Assembly: GCF_024832785.1 (NCBI RefSeq)
Contig: NZ_CP116615.1
Location: 3,286,001-3,350,000 of the forward strand
DNA: 64,000 bases
Direction: 5' to 3'
Source: Fontisphaera persica
Lineage (GTDB): Bacteria > Verrucomicrobiota > Verrucomicrobiia > Limisphaerales > Fontisphaeraceae
In this document: piece by piece, positions 7,423 to 23,006 of the stretch
Position numbering within the stretch: the first letter of the stretch is position 1
Layout: every line of letters begins with the position of its first letter
Made by a program: the position numbers and the translations under genes
The notes under the pieces: model-generated
Databases searched by the model: none
What the model was told of the DNA's origin: nothing
The model's input: only the letters and a program-made list of their open reading frames with translations

Positions 7423-9675
7423 ATGACTCACCGGTCCACCGCTCAAACCTGGCGTGGTTTCGCTTGCCTGGCCATCGCTTGGCTGGCGTTCAGCCTGCAA
7501 GGGCAGGCGGCCGAGCGCCAAATCATCTCGCTGCATGGTCTCTGGCAAATCGCCGAAAGCCGCGGCGCCGATGAAATGCCCGCCCTCTTCCCGCACCGCG
7601 TGCCCGTTCCCGGCCTGGTGAATCTGGCGCGGCCGCCCTTTCCGCAGGTGGACCAGTTCATCAGCCGCGAGAATCTGGCCAACCGCATCCGGGCCGGCAC
7701 GGCGCCCGCTGACTGGCTCACCAATTATTGGGCGGGCAAGGTGGAGCAGGACCGCAACTACTTCTGGTACCGGCGCACGTTTCGCGCGCCGTCCACGCCG
7801 CGCACCGTGGCCCAGTTGAAAATCAACAAGGCCCAATTTGGAACGGCCGTTTGGTTGAACGGGCAGAAAGTCGGCGAATACCCCGGCTGTTTCACCGCCA
7901 GTTACCATGACCTGTTGCCGGCCATCCGCTGGGGCGCGGAAAACACACTCATCATCCGCATCGGCGCGCATCCCGCCGTGCTGCCGGACACCTATCCCAC
8001 CGGCTCGGACTTCGAGAAAAAGAAATGGACGCCCGGCATTTATGATGAGGTTTCGCTGATTTTCTCCGACTTGCCGGCCATTGAGCATGTACAGGTGGCG
8101 CCGCGGCTGGCGGAGCAGGCGGTGGTGGTACAGACCCGCCTGCGCAACCCCACCCGCACGCCGGTGACTTCTCCACTGCAGCACACGGTGACCACCTGGA
8201 AGGGCAACCGCCCCGTCACCACCGCGCCGGCCATGACCGTGACGTTGCTGGGCGGTGAAACGCGCGAGTTTCTCCAAACCATTCCCCTGCCCAACGCCCG
8301 GCTCTGGTCGCCGGAAGACCCCTTCTTGTACGTGCTGGAAACGCGCACCGGCGGCGACCATGTGCGCACCCGCTTTGGCATGCGCGAGTTTCGCTTTGAC
8401 GCCGCCACACGCCGGGCCTGGTTGAACGGCAAAGTTTATTTCCTCCGCGGCTCCAACATCACGCTGCACCGCTTCTTTGAAGACCCCCTGTGCGGCGATT
8501 TGCCCTGGCGCGAAACCTGGGTGCGCCGCCTGCTGAGTGAATTACCCAAGCAGATGCACTGGAATTATTTCCGGTTTTGCATCGGCCCCGTGCCGGAGCG
8601 CTGGTTTGACATCTGCGATGAAGAGGGCCTGCTTATTCAAAACGAATTTTTTGTGTGGACCGGCGGCCCCGGGTGGTACCAAGGCTATTCGCGAAAACAC
8701 GATCCCGAGGAAATGATCCGCCAGTATCGCGACTGGATGCGCGACCACTGGAATCATCCCAGTGTGGTGGTGTGGGACGCCAACAACGAAACCAAGGATG
8801 ACCTCTTCCACACACGGGTGATTCCGGCGGTGCGCCCGCTCGATTTGTCCCACCGCCCCTGGGAAAACAGTTACAACCCGCCGGTGGACCCCAATGACCC
8901 GGTGGAAGACCATCCGTATTTGATGTTCAGCGGCTTCCGCGGGAAGCTTACTTTCAAAATGAGCGATTTGGAAACACGCGACGGCACGCCGCGCAAAGGC
9001 GCTCTCCCCTCCGACACCAACCCCCCGCTTATCAACGAGTATGGCTGGCTCTGGTTGAATCGCGACGGCACCCCTACCCTGCTCACCGAAAATGTGTACG
9101 CCCAATTGTTGGGCACCAACGTCACCGGCCGGCAGCGGCTGGATTTATGGGCCTACCTGCTCGCCGGCAAGACCGAATACTGGCGCGCTCACCGCCATTA
9201 CGCCGGCATCATTCATTTTGTGTACCTCACCTGCAGCTACCCCGGCGTGTACACCTCCGACCATTTCGCCGATGTGCGCCGCTTGAAACTGGACCCGGCC
9301 TTTGCCGATTACGTGGGCGAGGCCTTCAAGCCCCTGGGGGTGTATCTCAATTTCTTTCAACCCGAATTAACCGCAGGAGAGCGGCGGGAGTTCACCCTCT
9401 ACCTCATCAATGACGAACACCGGCCCGTGAAAGGCACCCTGCACCTTTCGCTGGAGACCCGGCAGGGCAAAGAAATGGCCGCCGCCGAGCAACCCTTCGC
9501 GCTGGAGGCGTTGGGCCGCGGCATTTACCTCGTGCCCCTGGTCATACCCCCAGTCCTGGGCCCGCATACCTTGAAAGCCGCTGCGCGCGAAGACGGAGAC
9601 CGGCGCGCACGGCCCACCCTCAGCCGCCGCTGGGTCGAGGTGAAACCAGGCGGTGCCGCCCCTGCCAAACCATGA
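7423..9675 (+). CDS. Glycoside hydrolase family 2 (beta-glycosidase), secreted
   Basis: A 750-residue GH2 protein. ATG 7423 is chosen because a signal peptide (CLAIAWLAFSLQGQAAE) follows; an in-frame ATG at 7402 would add seven residues. The sugar-binding jelly-roll domain (about 60-210) and an immunoglobulin-like domain come before the TIM barrel, which begins near the FLRGSNIT strand. The acid/base is E456 in WDANNETKDD, and the likely nucleophile is E539 in PLINEYGW. The substrate class (galactoside, glucuronide, mannoside) cannot be set from motifs. Its stop codon overlaps the start of the next gene, a nucleotide cyclase, by four bases (ATGA), which is unusual company for a glycosidase. 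Confidence 0.87.
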   Translation: MTHRSTAQTWRGFACLAIAWLAFSLQGQAAERQIISLHGLWQIAESRGADEMPALFPHRVPVPGLVNLARPPFPQVDQFISRENLANRIRAGTAPADWLTNYWAGKVEQDRNYFWYRRTFRAPSTPRTVAQLKINKAQFGTAVWLNGQKVGEYPGCFTASYHDLLPAIRWGAENTLIIRIGAHPAVLPDTYPTGSDFEKKKWTPGIYDEVSLIFSDLPAIEHVQVAPRLAEQAVVVQTRLRNPTRTPVTSPLQHTVTTWKGNRPVTTAPAMTVTLLGGETREFLQTIPLPNARLWSPEDPFLYVLETRTGGDHVRTRFGMREFRFDAATRRAWLNGKVYFLRGSNITLHRFFEDPLCGDLPWRETWVRRLLSELPKQMHWNYFRFCIGPVPERWFDICDEEGLLIQNEFFVWTGGPGWYQGYSRKHDPEEMIRQYRDWMRDHWNHPSVVVWDANNETKDDLFHTRVIPAVRPLDLSHRPWENSYNPPVDPNDPVEDHPYLMFSGFRGKLTFKMSDLETRDGTPRKGALPSDTNPPLINEYGWLWLNRDGTPTLLTENVYAQLLGTNVTGRQRLDLWAYLLAGKTEYWRAHRHYAGIIHFVYLTCSYPGVYTSDHFADVRRLKLDPAFADYVGEAFKPLGVYLNFFQPELTAGERREFTLYLINDEHRPVKGTLHLSLETRQGKEMAAAEQPFALEALGRGIYLVPLVIPPVLGPHTLKAAAREDGDRRARPTLSRRWVEVKPGGAAPAKP

Positions 9676-10880
9676 ACCCATCCACTCCCCAACGCCGGCT
9701 GGCCGCCATCATGTTTGCCGATGTTTGCGGTTACTCCCGCATCATGGGCGAAAACGAGCAGCGCGCCATGCGCATCCTGGCGTGCTTTGACGATGTATTT
9801 ACGCGCCAGTTGCAGCAACACGAGGGACGGCTCATCAAGCGCCTGGGCGACGGTATCCTGGCCGAGTTTTACAGCGCCGTGGCGGCCGTCCAATGCGCCC
9901 TGAGCGTGCAGCGCGCCCTGGCCGAACACAACGCCCAGGCGCCGCCGGAAGACCAATTCCAGGTGCGCATCGGCGTGCATCTGGGCGATGTGCTGGTGTC
10001 CGGCGGCGACATCCTGGGCGACGGCGTCAACGTGGCCTCCCGCATCGAGCCGCTGGCCGAGCCGGGCGGCATTTGCATCAGCCAGGATGTCTATCACCAG
10101 GTGCACAACAAGATGGAAATCCAGGCCGTATCCCTCGGCCCCCAGCAACTGAAAAACATCCAGCGCCAAATCGAGATTTATCGCGTCCTTGTGGCCGCTG
10201 CCGAGTGCCAGAGCGCGGCAACCGTGTCCGCAGAGGAATCCCAGCCGGACAACCCGCCGGTTCCGCCATCCGTCGAGCCAGGGGAGCCTGTGGCGGCCAG
10301 ACGCCGCAAATGGCCCTGGGTGGTGGCGGCCCTCTTCGGGTTGCTGCTCCTGCTGGCGCTGGTGGCCGCCCTCCTTCAGCAGGTTCAGTCCCAGCGCGCC
10401 CAACGCGCCGAAAAAGAAGCGCGCCAACTGTTAAACCAGGGAGAAACCGAGCGCGCCCGCCGCCTGCTGGAAAACACCTTGCGCGGGCTGGGGCCGCACA
10501 CCCCGGGCCGCGGCAAACTGGCGCAAATGCTCCAGGAAATCCGGGACGAGGAGTTGAAACAACACCTGCGCCGCCGCTTCGAGGCTCTGGTGGCCACCTT
10601 CCACCAAAAAAACTGGGATGCCGCCGCCCAGTTCGCCTCGCCGGAAAGCAAAATGCGGCTGGGCATGAAAAACATTGCCGGGCGCATGGCGCTGCTGGGA
10701 GTCTTTGCGGACGTCCTGAAAATCAAGCCGGGCGATTTCCGGCTCCGTGACCTCATCTTGCGGGAGGACCGCCAGCGGGCGGTAATTGTCCCTGAAATGC
10801 GGGTCGGCAACGCCTGGAACCCCCAACAACCCATCCACTGGCAATACCTGGAAAACGAATGGTGGGTGGTGATTGAGTAA
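9672..10880 (+). CDS. Class III adenylate/guanylate cyclase with TM anchor
   Basis: The 402-residue protein has its cyclase domain at the N-terminus (about 8-175). Metal aspartates are D17 (IMFADVCGYSR) and D60 (KRLGDGILAEF). The nucleotide-binding stretch reads GDILGDGVNVASRIEPL. A proline-rich linker leads to a transmembrane helix around residues 213-235 (WVVAALFGLLLLLALVAALL). A helical segment with TPR-like character follows, then a C-terminal domain of about 100 residues that I do not recognise. By topology the cyclase faces the cytoplasm and the C-terminal domain the periplasm, the reverse of the usual order. It probably makes cAMP. It is translationally coupled to the GH2 gene by ATGA. 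Confidence 0.86.
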   Translation: MNPSTPQRRLAAIMFADVCGYSRIMGENEQRAMRILACFDDVFTRQLQQHEGRLIKRLGDGILAEFYSAVAAVQCALSVQRALAEHNAQAPPEDQFQVRIGVHLGDVLVSGGDILGDGVNVASRIEPLAEPGGICISQDVYHQVHNKMEIQAVSLGPQQLKNIQRQIEIYRVLVAAAECQSAATVSAEESQPDNPPVPPSVEPGEPVAARRRKWPWVVAALFGLLLLLALVAALLQQVQSQRAQRAEKEARQLLNQGETERARRLLENTLRGLGPHTPGRGKLAQMLQEIRDEELKQHLRRRFEALVATFHQKNWDAAAQFASPESKMRLGMKNIAGRMALLGVFADVLKIKPGDFRLRDLILREDRQRAVIVPEMRVGNAWNPQQPIHWQYLENEWWVVIE

Positions 10881-10890
10881 CTTAAACTCT

Positions 10891-11060
10891 GTAGCGCAGG
10901 CGTTGCACTCCTTGTAGCGCAGGCGTCCCCCCTGTGCTGCGACGAATGGAAGGTTGGCGTGCGGCCCTGTGCTTATAAGCGAGTCGGCATGACCTTGGCA
11001 GTTCTGCAATCACGGAGCCGGGAGGCTCCGTGAACCCGCAGGCGAGGACGCCTGCGCTAC
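10891..11060. repeat. BIME-like palindromic unit 1 (GTAG-headed hairpins)
   Basis: GTAGCGCAGGCGT occurs at 10891 and 10914 on the plus strand and faces its reverse complement ending at 11060. Read on the minus strand from 11060, GTAG is followed by hairpin 1 (11038-11055: 7-bp stem GCAGGCG, loop TCCT). A 5-nt spacer comes next, then hairpin 2 (11011-11032: 9-bp stem CACGGAGCC, loop TCCC). Both stems are perfect. The core 10997-11062 recurs at 11463-11527 and 22208-22272. A GTAG 5' to a hairpin and facing pairs are hallmarks of REP/BIME elements. No ORF in this interval looks real. Confidence 0.85.
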
Positions 11061-11070
11061 ACACCCTCAC

Positions 11071-11263
11071 CTTGGCTTTCTGCTGTGATGGGGTGGAGGG
11101 AAAAGGGGTCAGAGCGTGTGAAGGGGAAAACACCCACCACGAATGAACACGAATGGACACGAATTTTTAACAGAAGAAAACGAAGGGAACGAAGAGGGAG
11201 AAGAGGCCCCTCACCCTGACCTTCTCCCACGGGGAGAAGGGAACTGTTAATGGGCGTTGTGGG
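11071..11263. repeat. Long intergenic repeat, copy A
   Basis: About 190 bp beginning CTTGGCTTTCTGCTG and ending near GGGCGTTGTGGG is repeated at 22304-22493 with few differences. It includes the quasi-tandem stretch ACGAATGAACACGAATGGAC (from 11139) and an inverted repeat around CCTTCTCCC...GGGGAGAAGG (11220-11240). No credible coding frame is present. It lies directly beside the hairpin unit in both places, so the two behave as one composite block. Confidence 0.8.
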
Positions 11264-11352
11264 ATTTTCGCCCGCTTTGGTGGTGTGCAGGCCGAGATGA
11301 AGATGAGGGAGACGGCAGCCGCAGAAAAAAACTCATTCATCCTTTGCCCCCC

Positions 11353-11527
11353 GCCTGCAAGACGCAGGCATTATCCCGCCTTGCGGGACGAGAACATCTG
11401 CGTTGCGGCACAGAAAGGATTGGCGCACGGACTGGTGCTCCCAAGGGCGTCTGTTTGACTTCGGCAGTTCTGCAATCACGGAGCCGGGAGGCTCCGTGAA
11501 CCCGCAGGCGAGGACGCCTGCGCTACA
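11353..11527. repeat. Composite palindromic repeat next to hypE
   Basis: The left part is a second hairpin pair: GCCTGC/GCAGGC (11353-11369, loop AAGAC) and CCCGC/GCGGG (11375-11387, loop CTT). The same arrangement is seen at 22586-22620. The right part, 11402-11527, begins GTTGCGGCACAG and contains copy 2 of the double hairpin (stems 11477-11498 and 11504-11521). It ends only 14 bp from the hypE stop codon, so on the minus strand it lies in the 3' end of the hypFCDE transcript. It might serve there as a 3' structure, but no U-tract follows it. Confidence 0.8.
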
Positions 11528-11541
11528 GGGGGAGGGGTGCC

Positions 11542-22061: not shown

Positions 22062-22272
22062 GTAGTGCAGGCGTCCCGTCCCGCGGGGCGAGATAAAGCT
22101 TTCGTCCCACAGGCTTATTCCAACCTTACGATGCGTGCTCACCTTCGTTACGGCACAGGAAAGATTGACGCGAGGCCTAGTGCTTCCCAGCGCGTCCGCT
22201 AGACCCTGGCAATTCTGCAATCACGGAGCCGGGAGGCTCCGTGAACCCGCAGGCGAGGACGCCTGCGCTACA
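22062..22272. repeat. BIME-like palindromic unit, copy 3
   Basis: A GTAG-headed hairpin half at 22062 (plus) faces the complete double hairpin read on the minus strand from 22270: stems 22249-22266 and 22222-22243, identical to those at 11011-11055. The flank 22146-22207 (GTTACGGCACAGGAAAG...) is a diverged copy of 11402-11462. A further GTAGCGCGGGCGT ends at 22293 on the minus strand. The block lies downstream of the matrixin gene; its short open frames are repeat-encoded and not credible genes. Confidence 0.83.
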
Positions 22273-22303
22273 TGGGGCCGACGCCCGCGCTACACACCAT
22301 CAC

Positions 22304-22493
22304 CTTGGCTTTCTGCTACGATGGGGTGGAGGGAAAAGGGGGCAGAAAGGGTGAAGGGGAAACACCAACCACGAATGAACACGAATGGACACAAATTTTG
22401 AACAGAAGGAAACGAAGGGAACGAAGAGGAAGAAGAGGCCCCTCACCCTGACCCTCTCCCGCGGGGAGAGGGAAGATGTTAATGGGCGTTGGG
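22304..22493. repeat. Long intergenic repeat, copy B
   Basis: Second copy of the approximately 190-bp sequence at 11071-11263, in the same orientation relative to the palindromic unit. It contains the ACGAATGAACACGAATGGAC tract (from 22372) and the inverted repeat CCCTCTCCC/GGGGAGAGGG. The compensating change between copies (TTCTCCC/GGGAGAA versus CTCTCCC/GGGGAGAG) keeps the pairing, which hints that the fold matters. Confidence 0.78.
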
Positions 22494-22931: not shown

Positions 22932-23006
22932 TGGAGCCAGCGGTCGGATTTGAACCGACGACCGGCGGTTTACAAAACCGCTGCTCTGCCGCTGAGCTAC
23001 GCTGGC
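22932..23006 (-). tRNA. tRNA-Thr (anticodon UGU)
   Basis: Read on the minus strand the 75 bases fold fully. The acceptor stem is GCCAGCG/CGCTGGC (7 bp, perfect), the D stem GCTC/GAGC and the anticodon stem GCGGT/ACCGC. The anticodon loop is TTTGTAA, giving anticodon TGT (Thr, codon ACA). The variable loop is CGGTC, and the T stem GTCGG/CCGAC has loop TTCAAAT. The discriminator T and the CCA end are encoded. It lies 85 bp downstream of the HPr-kinase-like gene on the same strand. Confidence 0.97.

Follow-up and report, generated by a model that had tools for sequence, protein, structure and literature searches.

In a gap between two convergent genes, the stretch of DNA analysed here (the window: 64,000 nucleotides, bases 3286001-3350000 of a 4.73-Mb single-contig genome) carries GTAG-headed hairpin repeats, which raise the question of what kind of element they are and what has spread them. 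An earlier note had read them as REP/BIME elements associated with a RAYT, a REP-associated tyrosine transposase. The sequence, positions and orientations of the repeats were borne out; the whereabouts of the enzyme and its relation to the dispersed copies proved less simple.

A half-unit with two hairpins

A scan blind to stem sequence, requiring only GTAG followed by two perfect hairpins of any sequence, revealed three identical minus-strand units in the window, at 11010-11060, 11476-11526 and 22221-22271. Each consists of GTAG, hairpin 1 (CGCAGGCG, 8 bp, loop TCCT), the 3 nt GGT and hairpin 2 (TCACGGAGCC, 10 bp, loop TCCC); the two hairpins described earlier are therefore present, while the lengths given for them (7 bp and 9 bp around a 5-nt spacer) fell slightly short. 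When the 11010-11060 unit was folded as single-stranded DNA, within a stretch of 63 nt that includes a third small stem, both hairpins formed with a z of −6.9, as low a value being reached by none of 200 shuffles; the complementary strand folds with a z of −6.3. Sites with at most two mismatches to GTAGCGCAGGCG number 24 in the window, against a mean of 11.55 in shuffled sequences, none of 100 reaching 24. The plus-strand heads placed at 10891 and 10914 exist, but the perfect hairpins expected after them were not among the scan matches. The features are as follows.

10881..11541, no strand: intergenic array between convergent genes, head order ++--
10891..10902, plus strand: half-unit with GTAG head alone, exact match to GTAGCGCAGGCG
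10914..10929, plus strand: second GTAG head (GTAGCGCAGGCGTCCC, exact match), facing 11060
11010..11060, minus strand: complete double-hairpin REP half-unit (GTAG, hairpin 1, GGT, hairpin 2), from the sequence-blind scan and the DNA fold
11047..11259, no strand: additional repeat modules of the composite array (families D2 and D3), repeated at 22280-22491 with 90-91% identity
11476..11526, minus strand: complete double-hairpin REP half-unit, 466 bp from the 11010..11060 unit, from repeat comparison and the sequence-blind scan
22062..22073, plus strand: degenerate head (GTAGTGCAGGCG, 1 mismatch), facing 22271; cluster order +--
22221..22271, minus strand: complete double-hairpin REP half-unit, from the sequence-blind scan
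22282..22293, minus strand: degenerate head (GTAGCGCGGGCG, 1 mismatch)

Both window gaps that hold the units lie between convergent genes, the 10881..11541 array being flanked by a cyclase-domain gene (9672-10880, plus strand) and an AIRS-domain gene from 11542. Its composite unit of about 470 bp carries other repeat modules, D2 and D3, besides the REPs, and CACGAATGGACACGAAT-like and CCTTCTCCC-like tracts recur alongside the REPs at 11120-11240 and 22350-22480. In an Rfam search over the window a tRNA at 22935-23006 alone reached the gathering score, with no structured-RNA family at the repeats, which speaks against the rRNA-type structure that had been named as an outcome refuting the REP reading.

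A family of only three copies had been named as another such outcome, and this was excluded. With at most one mismatch, the 16-mer head TGTAGCGCAGGCGTCC occurs at 134 sites in the genome (68 on the plus and 66 on the minus strand) and the pattern read backwards at none; at the same tolerance GTAGCGCAGGCGTC occurs at 185 sites, and once backwards. BLAST with the 66-bp core gave at least 53 matches, with 40 of 101 candidates scored. Sixty stretches of 20 kb were examined together with the window, making 61 sources, in which the main type is complete in 75 copies (37 plus, 38 minus). The stem-blind scan covered 41 of these sources (864 kb), 24 of them picked because of known sites, 16 as controls and 1 for the second Y1_Tnp match; it found 109 matches against 1 in reversed sequence, and ten other tetramers in place of GTAG gave 0-29 matches, CATG being highest with 29. 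Removal of 6 mirror readings of the same elements left 103 double hairpins. According to a simple gene caller made for the analysis, a single one of these is contained entirely within a gene; convergent gaps account for 32, unidirectional gaps for 37 and divergent gaps for 22, and 11 are close to the ends of the stretches. Heads with at most one mismatch fall in called genes in 13 of 198 cases, some of which are probably chance matches. Perfect pairing is the selection rule in the stem-blind scans and in alignments drawn from them, and paired percentages there carry no weight.

Among the dispersed copies hairpin 2 takes several unrelated sequences (TCACGGAGCC, GCCTGCG and ATCGGCG), with little change in the tag or in the type of loop. 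CT, the cleavage dinucleotide known from E. coli (PMC8266576), does not predominate immediately before GTAG, where it stands in 32 of 171 cases against 50 for AT, a point against the RAYT reading. With GTAG at the hairpin foot, more than 100 copies, a mainly extragenic location, inverted pairs in which GTAG faces outward and a RAYT bordered by similarly built elements, the repeats are GTAG REP elements, in agreement with the earlier REP/BIME reading. Other features were noted near such copies. Coding density is low at L043 and L044 (2.07-2.12 Mb), where RHS-core-like tips, recognised by eye, repeat at intervals of about 2 kb and enclose REP elements; tips of this kind occur also in the same-genus genome G001. 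At about 8500-9710 of L045 an array module contains what looks by eye like an insertion sequence, with inverted ends.

A RAYT outside the window and its relatives

Contrary to the earlier note, there is no RAYT relative in the window. A Y1_Tnp profile search of the genome gave 2 matches at E<=0.001 and 3 at E<=10, all outside 3286001-3350000. The first is a solo RAYT at 2809100-2809753, 0.48 Mb outside the window, whose 219-aa protein scores 100.5 bits against the cut-off of 80 of the NCBIfam model REP_Tyr_transpos (REP-associated tyrosine transposase) and in which the motifs MPNHVH (HUH) and YTVMNP (Tyr) were read, identifying it as a Y1 HUH transposase. Two REPINs lie upstream of it and one downstream. 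All three start with GTAG and finish with CTAC and have a pair of hairpins on the left; two of them have a pair on the right as well. The stop codon of the gene is the TAG of the downstream GTAG. The hairpin-2 sequences at this locus (GGCGCACCG and GGCGGCG) are absent among the other stem-blind scan matches, so that a partnership between the solo RAYT and the dispersed copies, whose hairpin 2 differs, rests on tag, hairpin 1 and layout. This difference weakens the link without removing it. The host of the repeats appears to be verrucomicrobial, as had been supposed, and among 65 loci compared by title and identity the two closest RAYTs in named genomes belong to records titled Verrucomicrobia bacterium (60 and 56% identity).

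RAYTs like the solo RAYT (E<=1e-10) occur in 141 of 293 genomes of the order, this one included. At 31 RAYT loci of other genomes, 66 GTAG double hairpins with other stem sequences were detected at 23 loci, with none in the reversed control; ten other tetramers gave 0-14 double hairpins at these loci, GTGG being highest with 14. In a test that made no use of hairpins, the RAYT stop codon was found within GTAG at 14 of 32 loci, the present one included. Alignment of 44 half-units (42 distinct) revealed 4 of the 8 pairs of hairpin 1 changed on both sides, in 25 cells against a shuffled mean of 3.0, a comparison in which only the variety of pair types counts, the half-units having been chosen for perfect pairing. 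Hairpin 2 loops are of 3 or 4 nt, and MAFFT sets them out of register. A RAYT is present in 21 of the 24 genomes that contain 20 heads or more, against 120 of the 269 others (p 5.6e-5, from a hand tally that ignores kinship); in the remaining copy-rich genomes, G011, G019 and G169, none was detected at E<=1e-10. G001, of the same genus, lacks a RAYT match and has 1 head against a control of 3, and the same-family genome G002 has 2 RAYT matches and 2 heads (control 7).

The two hairpins of a half-unit tend to match at the apex. When 58 distinct double hairpins, from 24 of 32 loci, were compared, hairpins 1 and 2 had the same closing base in 0.76 of within-locus comparisons against 0.36 with shuffled loci (p<=0.0002, ignoring kinship); in the main type of the window the closing bases are unlike, G and C. 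Four loci, L115, L118, L119 and L121, carry a GTAG at the second hairpin too. These patterns suggest that the half-unit originated from a tandem pair of REPs, the inner tag having presumably decayed in most lineages, and that one protein may read both hairpins. Particular loop bases are known to be important for group 3 enzymes (PMC8266576).

Much of this has precedent. Within Verrucomicrobia, Opitutus terrae has GTAG REPs, and REPtrons, REPINs, tandem arrays, intragenic REPs and repeat deserts have likewise been described (PMC3733652, PMC6006769, PMC3116915, PMC2718517). With GTAG REPs, those of O. terrae included, the present family has in common the GTAG tag, a short perfect hairpin, intergenic location, dimers and REPtrons (PMC3733652), and flanks overlapping the RAYT 3' end and spacers with small stem-loops are mentioned for such families in the same source. 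It differs in that a second hairpin is constant in the half-unit here and occurs at RAYT loci across an order, a feature that the account of O. terrae in PMC3733652, as far as it goes, does not describe. In the double inverted repeats of P. putida 607 and P. fluorescens 4255, a GTAG-like unit joined to a second stem-loop likewise flanks a RAYT and occurs in hundreds of copies, but with a degenerate GTAG part and an unrelated second stem-loop (PMC3733652), whereas here the outer tag is intact and the hairpins tend to share apex type. The solo RAYT and its repeats resemble TnpAREP subclass 2.4 (group 4 of Bertels) in NHVH, a WQ motif and long perfect REPs, and also in "double foot" REPs (GTAG...CTAC), found here at L051 9201 and L062 7790; of the subclass motifs NH[IFV]H, WQ and YIxNNP (PMC6006769), the solo RAYT has the first two, its Tyr motif being YTVMNP. 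No report of a double-hairpin REP half-unit was found in the literature, a weak negative given mostly open-access coverage.

Cluster order, distribution and the spread of the copies

Joining heads outside genes at distances of at most 1.5 kb yielded 44 clusters, 22 of them with both orientations. In 21 of these 22, all plus heads precede all minus heads, and none has the reverse order; the one cluster that departs from this pattern is that of the RAYT locus, which contains three REPINs. Treated as 21 coin tosses, the 21 clusters have a chance of 5e-7 by simple arithmetic, and joining at 2.5 kb leaves 18 of 21 mixed clusters in this order. Accordingly, 23 of the 25 orientation changes in the 1.5-kb clusters run from plus to minus, the other two separating REPINs at the RAYT, and the arrangement is that of a REPIN or BIME, two REPs inverted with GTAG outward. 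Spacings of about 20, 72, 119, 191-198, 205, 350 and 470 bp recur. Clusters hold up to 9 heads with mostly unequal numbers of plus and minus, because of which nested REPIN insertion was set aside as their sole cause. Over the 68 nt that follow the unit, same-strand neighbours are 0.78 alike, compared with 0.70 for other clusters, 0.69 for opposite strands within a cluster and 0.57 for random sequence. We infer that a REPIN acts as the seed of a cluster and that tandem duplication then extends its arms. The REPINs of P. fluorescens SBW25 are likewise inverted REP pairs, found in ordered tandem arrays with conserved flanks, as distinct from the n plus then m minus units, n and m often unequal, seen here (PMC3116915). 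A search of G001 for an empty counterpart of the window array found none; what follows the cyclase gene there looks by eye like a different gene.

The clusters are unevenly placed on the chromosome. A set of 102 sites (100 among the 16-mer matches listed, in which one-mismatch sites extend up to 3.1 Mb and cover the whole arc described here, and 2 more from the core BLAST) forms 33 clusters, none of which lies between 0.224 and 2.080 Mb, an arc of 1.86 Mb or 39% of the genome; no such gap arose in 200,000 random sets (bound 4e-6). The 16 control stretches within the arc hold 3 heads with at most one mismatch, 1 of them perfect. The sign of third-position GC skew changes near 3.70 Mb, from minus to plus, and, with many local exceptions, changes back somewhere near 1.4-1.6 Mb, so that the arc may surround the terminus; this reading is tentative because dnaA, at 3.145 Mb, disagrees with the skew switch near 3.70 Mb. 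P. fluorescens SBW25 similarly has about 40% of its genome free of repeats, distributed there over 60 deserts of at most 176 kb each rather than one arc (PMC2718517). Giant open frames were also noted in this region, one gene call spanning all of L071 (0.96-0.98 Mb) and two spanning 99% of L078 (1.73-1.75 Mb).

Given the observed architecture, copy number, intergenic bias, RAYT linkage, retention of the design with changed stems in relatives and cluster order, we consider it very probable that the repeats are a GTAG-type REP family, with two hairpins per half-unit, REPINs with GTAG outward and locally amplified arrays. In the proposed mechanism, the HUH tyrosine transposase encoded at 2809100-2809753 would recognise GTAG and hairpin 1 on single-stranded DNA, with hairpin 2 as a second contact site, would cleave next to the tag and would copy or move the REPIN to intergenic sites. 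Once in a gene gap, the left or right arm of the REPIN would be duplicated with adjacent filler by unequal recombination or slippage, which is how we picture the arms growing into clusters of n plus then m minus units. The dispersed copies would have been moved by the solo RAYT or by a close former relative. RAYTs of E. coli and other bacteria bind and cleave single-stranded REP at the tag; PMC8266576, which reports this, also states that there is no evidence of tnpAREP mobility.

The chief alternative is a family born of a RAYT long ago and spread today by recombination and tandem duplication only, which would account for a dispersed hairpin 2 unlike that at the RAYT and for the greater likeness of same-strand neighbours. 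Nearly full-length core matches at far-apart sites are, however, 95-100% identical by BLAST, and the same-genus genome has no excess of heads; spread therefore looks recent on the scale of the genus, and we regard a dead family as unlikely, though it deserves to be kept in mind. Transcription terminators or 3' mRNA-stabilising structures, spread by selection for that role and not by mobility, would suit strong hairpins of which 32 and 37 of 103 stand in convergent and unidirectional gaps, but not the 22 in divergent gaps or clusters with as many as 9 heads, and they leave unexplained the linkage to RAYTs and the lack of both in G001; as a primary explanation this is improbable, a secondary terminator or stabilising role being possible. 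A MITE derived from a conventional DDE transposon or from an insertion sequence, which the inverted layout and high copy number might suggest, is highly improbable, since GTAG with hairpins and presence at the RAYT loci of many genomes point to an HUH system and the apparent insertion sequence in the L045 array has, by eye, unrelated ends.

RAYT domains in frame inside host proteins

A REP family with a RAYT in the genome is less surprising than a by-product of the analysis, RAYTs in frame within other genes. The only alaS match of the genome (L081 7822-11352; genome 2494821-2498351) contains, in frame, the second Y1_Tnp match, and Pfam places AlaRS domains around this embedded RAYT. The insert is bounded by inverted double hairpins (48 nt aligned, score 56, reached by 0 of 1000 random pairs), with GGAG/GGAC as tag in place of GTAG, and alaS of the same-genus genome has no such insert at that site. 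A different insert occupies the same AlaRS position in L257, the alaS of G002, and in G004, G012, G015, G052, G053 and G063 the alaS match is split in a way that suggests a short insert, close to residue 145 of the C-terminal query.

From at least about 40 RAYT matches in frames of at least 550 aa, counted stop-to-stop, 20 loci (L235-L254) were taken. That such long frames are all alaS was rejected, none of the 20 matching either half of the AlaRS of the present genome at E<=1e-8. Pfam identified the hosts as DnaE (2), DinG-type helicase (6), PriA (3), ClpB (2), SNF2 (2), a UDPGP-domain protein (4) and HsdR (1). Host domains lie on both sides of the RAYT in DnaE, DinG-type, PriA, ClpB and SNF2 proteins, as in AlaRS, and on the C-terminal side only in the UDPGP and HsdR cases; the HsdR case could for this reason be a terminal fusion, while the UDPGP-domain protein is probably a true RAYT host. 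In L236, L246 and L081 Y1_Tnp fell below the thresholds of the domain scan, and the RAYT was assigned by other RAYT searches. The Tyr pattern is present in 20 of 21 embedded RAYTs (L241 lacks it), frames that had been picked for the HUH motif. In a tree the embedded RAYTs tend to cluster by host gene, with 9 label changes against 20.5 when shuffled: those of PriA, ClpB and DnaE each fall into a single group, 2 changes are required for DinG and SNF2 and 3 for UDPGP, and the AlaRS-embedded RAYT sits on a very long branch. Left and right flanks are inverted copies at a rank p<=0.05 in 17 of 20 loci, L235, L237 and L238 being weaker; the interval used in this test missed the ends of L081.

The DinG-type helicases provide alleles with and without the insert. 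Matches were found in 134 of 146 genomes, most full frames being about 700-850 aa and nine 945-1040 aa; a RAYT was present in all seven of these nine that were checked. Within one genus, G099 and G139 have the RAYT and G070, G015 and G120 do not. At the DinG site of G070 stands one in-frame, translated REPIN (GTAG...CTAC), while filled alleles read REPIN-RAYT-REPIN with partly degenerate tags.

L278, L240, L276: DinG alleles of one genus with a single REPIN or REPIN-RAYT-REPIN

These alleles are compatible both with loss of the RAYT by REPIN-REPIN recombination and with RAYT insertion. On sequence grounds we advance, tentatively and at somewhat less than an even chance, the joint reading that the RAYT-REPIN system of the order has moved into coding sequence, that REPINs may themselves be translated as linkers in host proteins, and that in-frame RAYTs may be a long-lived source of non-autonomous REPINs like those of the window. 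No report of RAYTs inside host genes was found in the literature, again a weak negative from mostly open-access coverage.

REP elements are widespread in bacterial genomes. The distinctive features of the present family are two hairpins per half-unit with matching apices, plus-then-minus clusters and a repeat-free arc of 1.86 Mb. Two apex-matched hairpins, kept across an order despite change in their stems, constitute a natural experiment on what the enzyme reads. In-frame RAYTs in housekeeping genes, of which one genus has alleles both carrying and lacking the insert, bring mobility and domestication within reach of direct tests; if the joint reading is true, a transposase whose disruption would damage the host gene would persist as an intein does, without known splicing.
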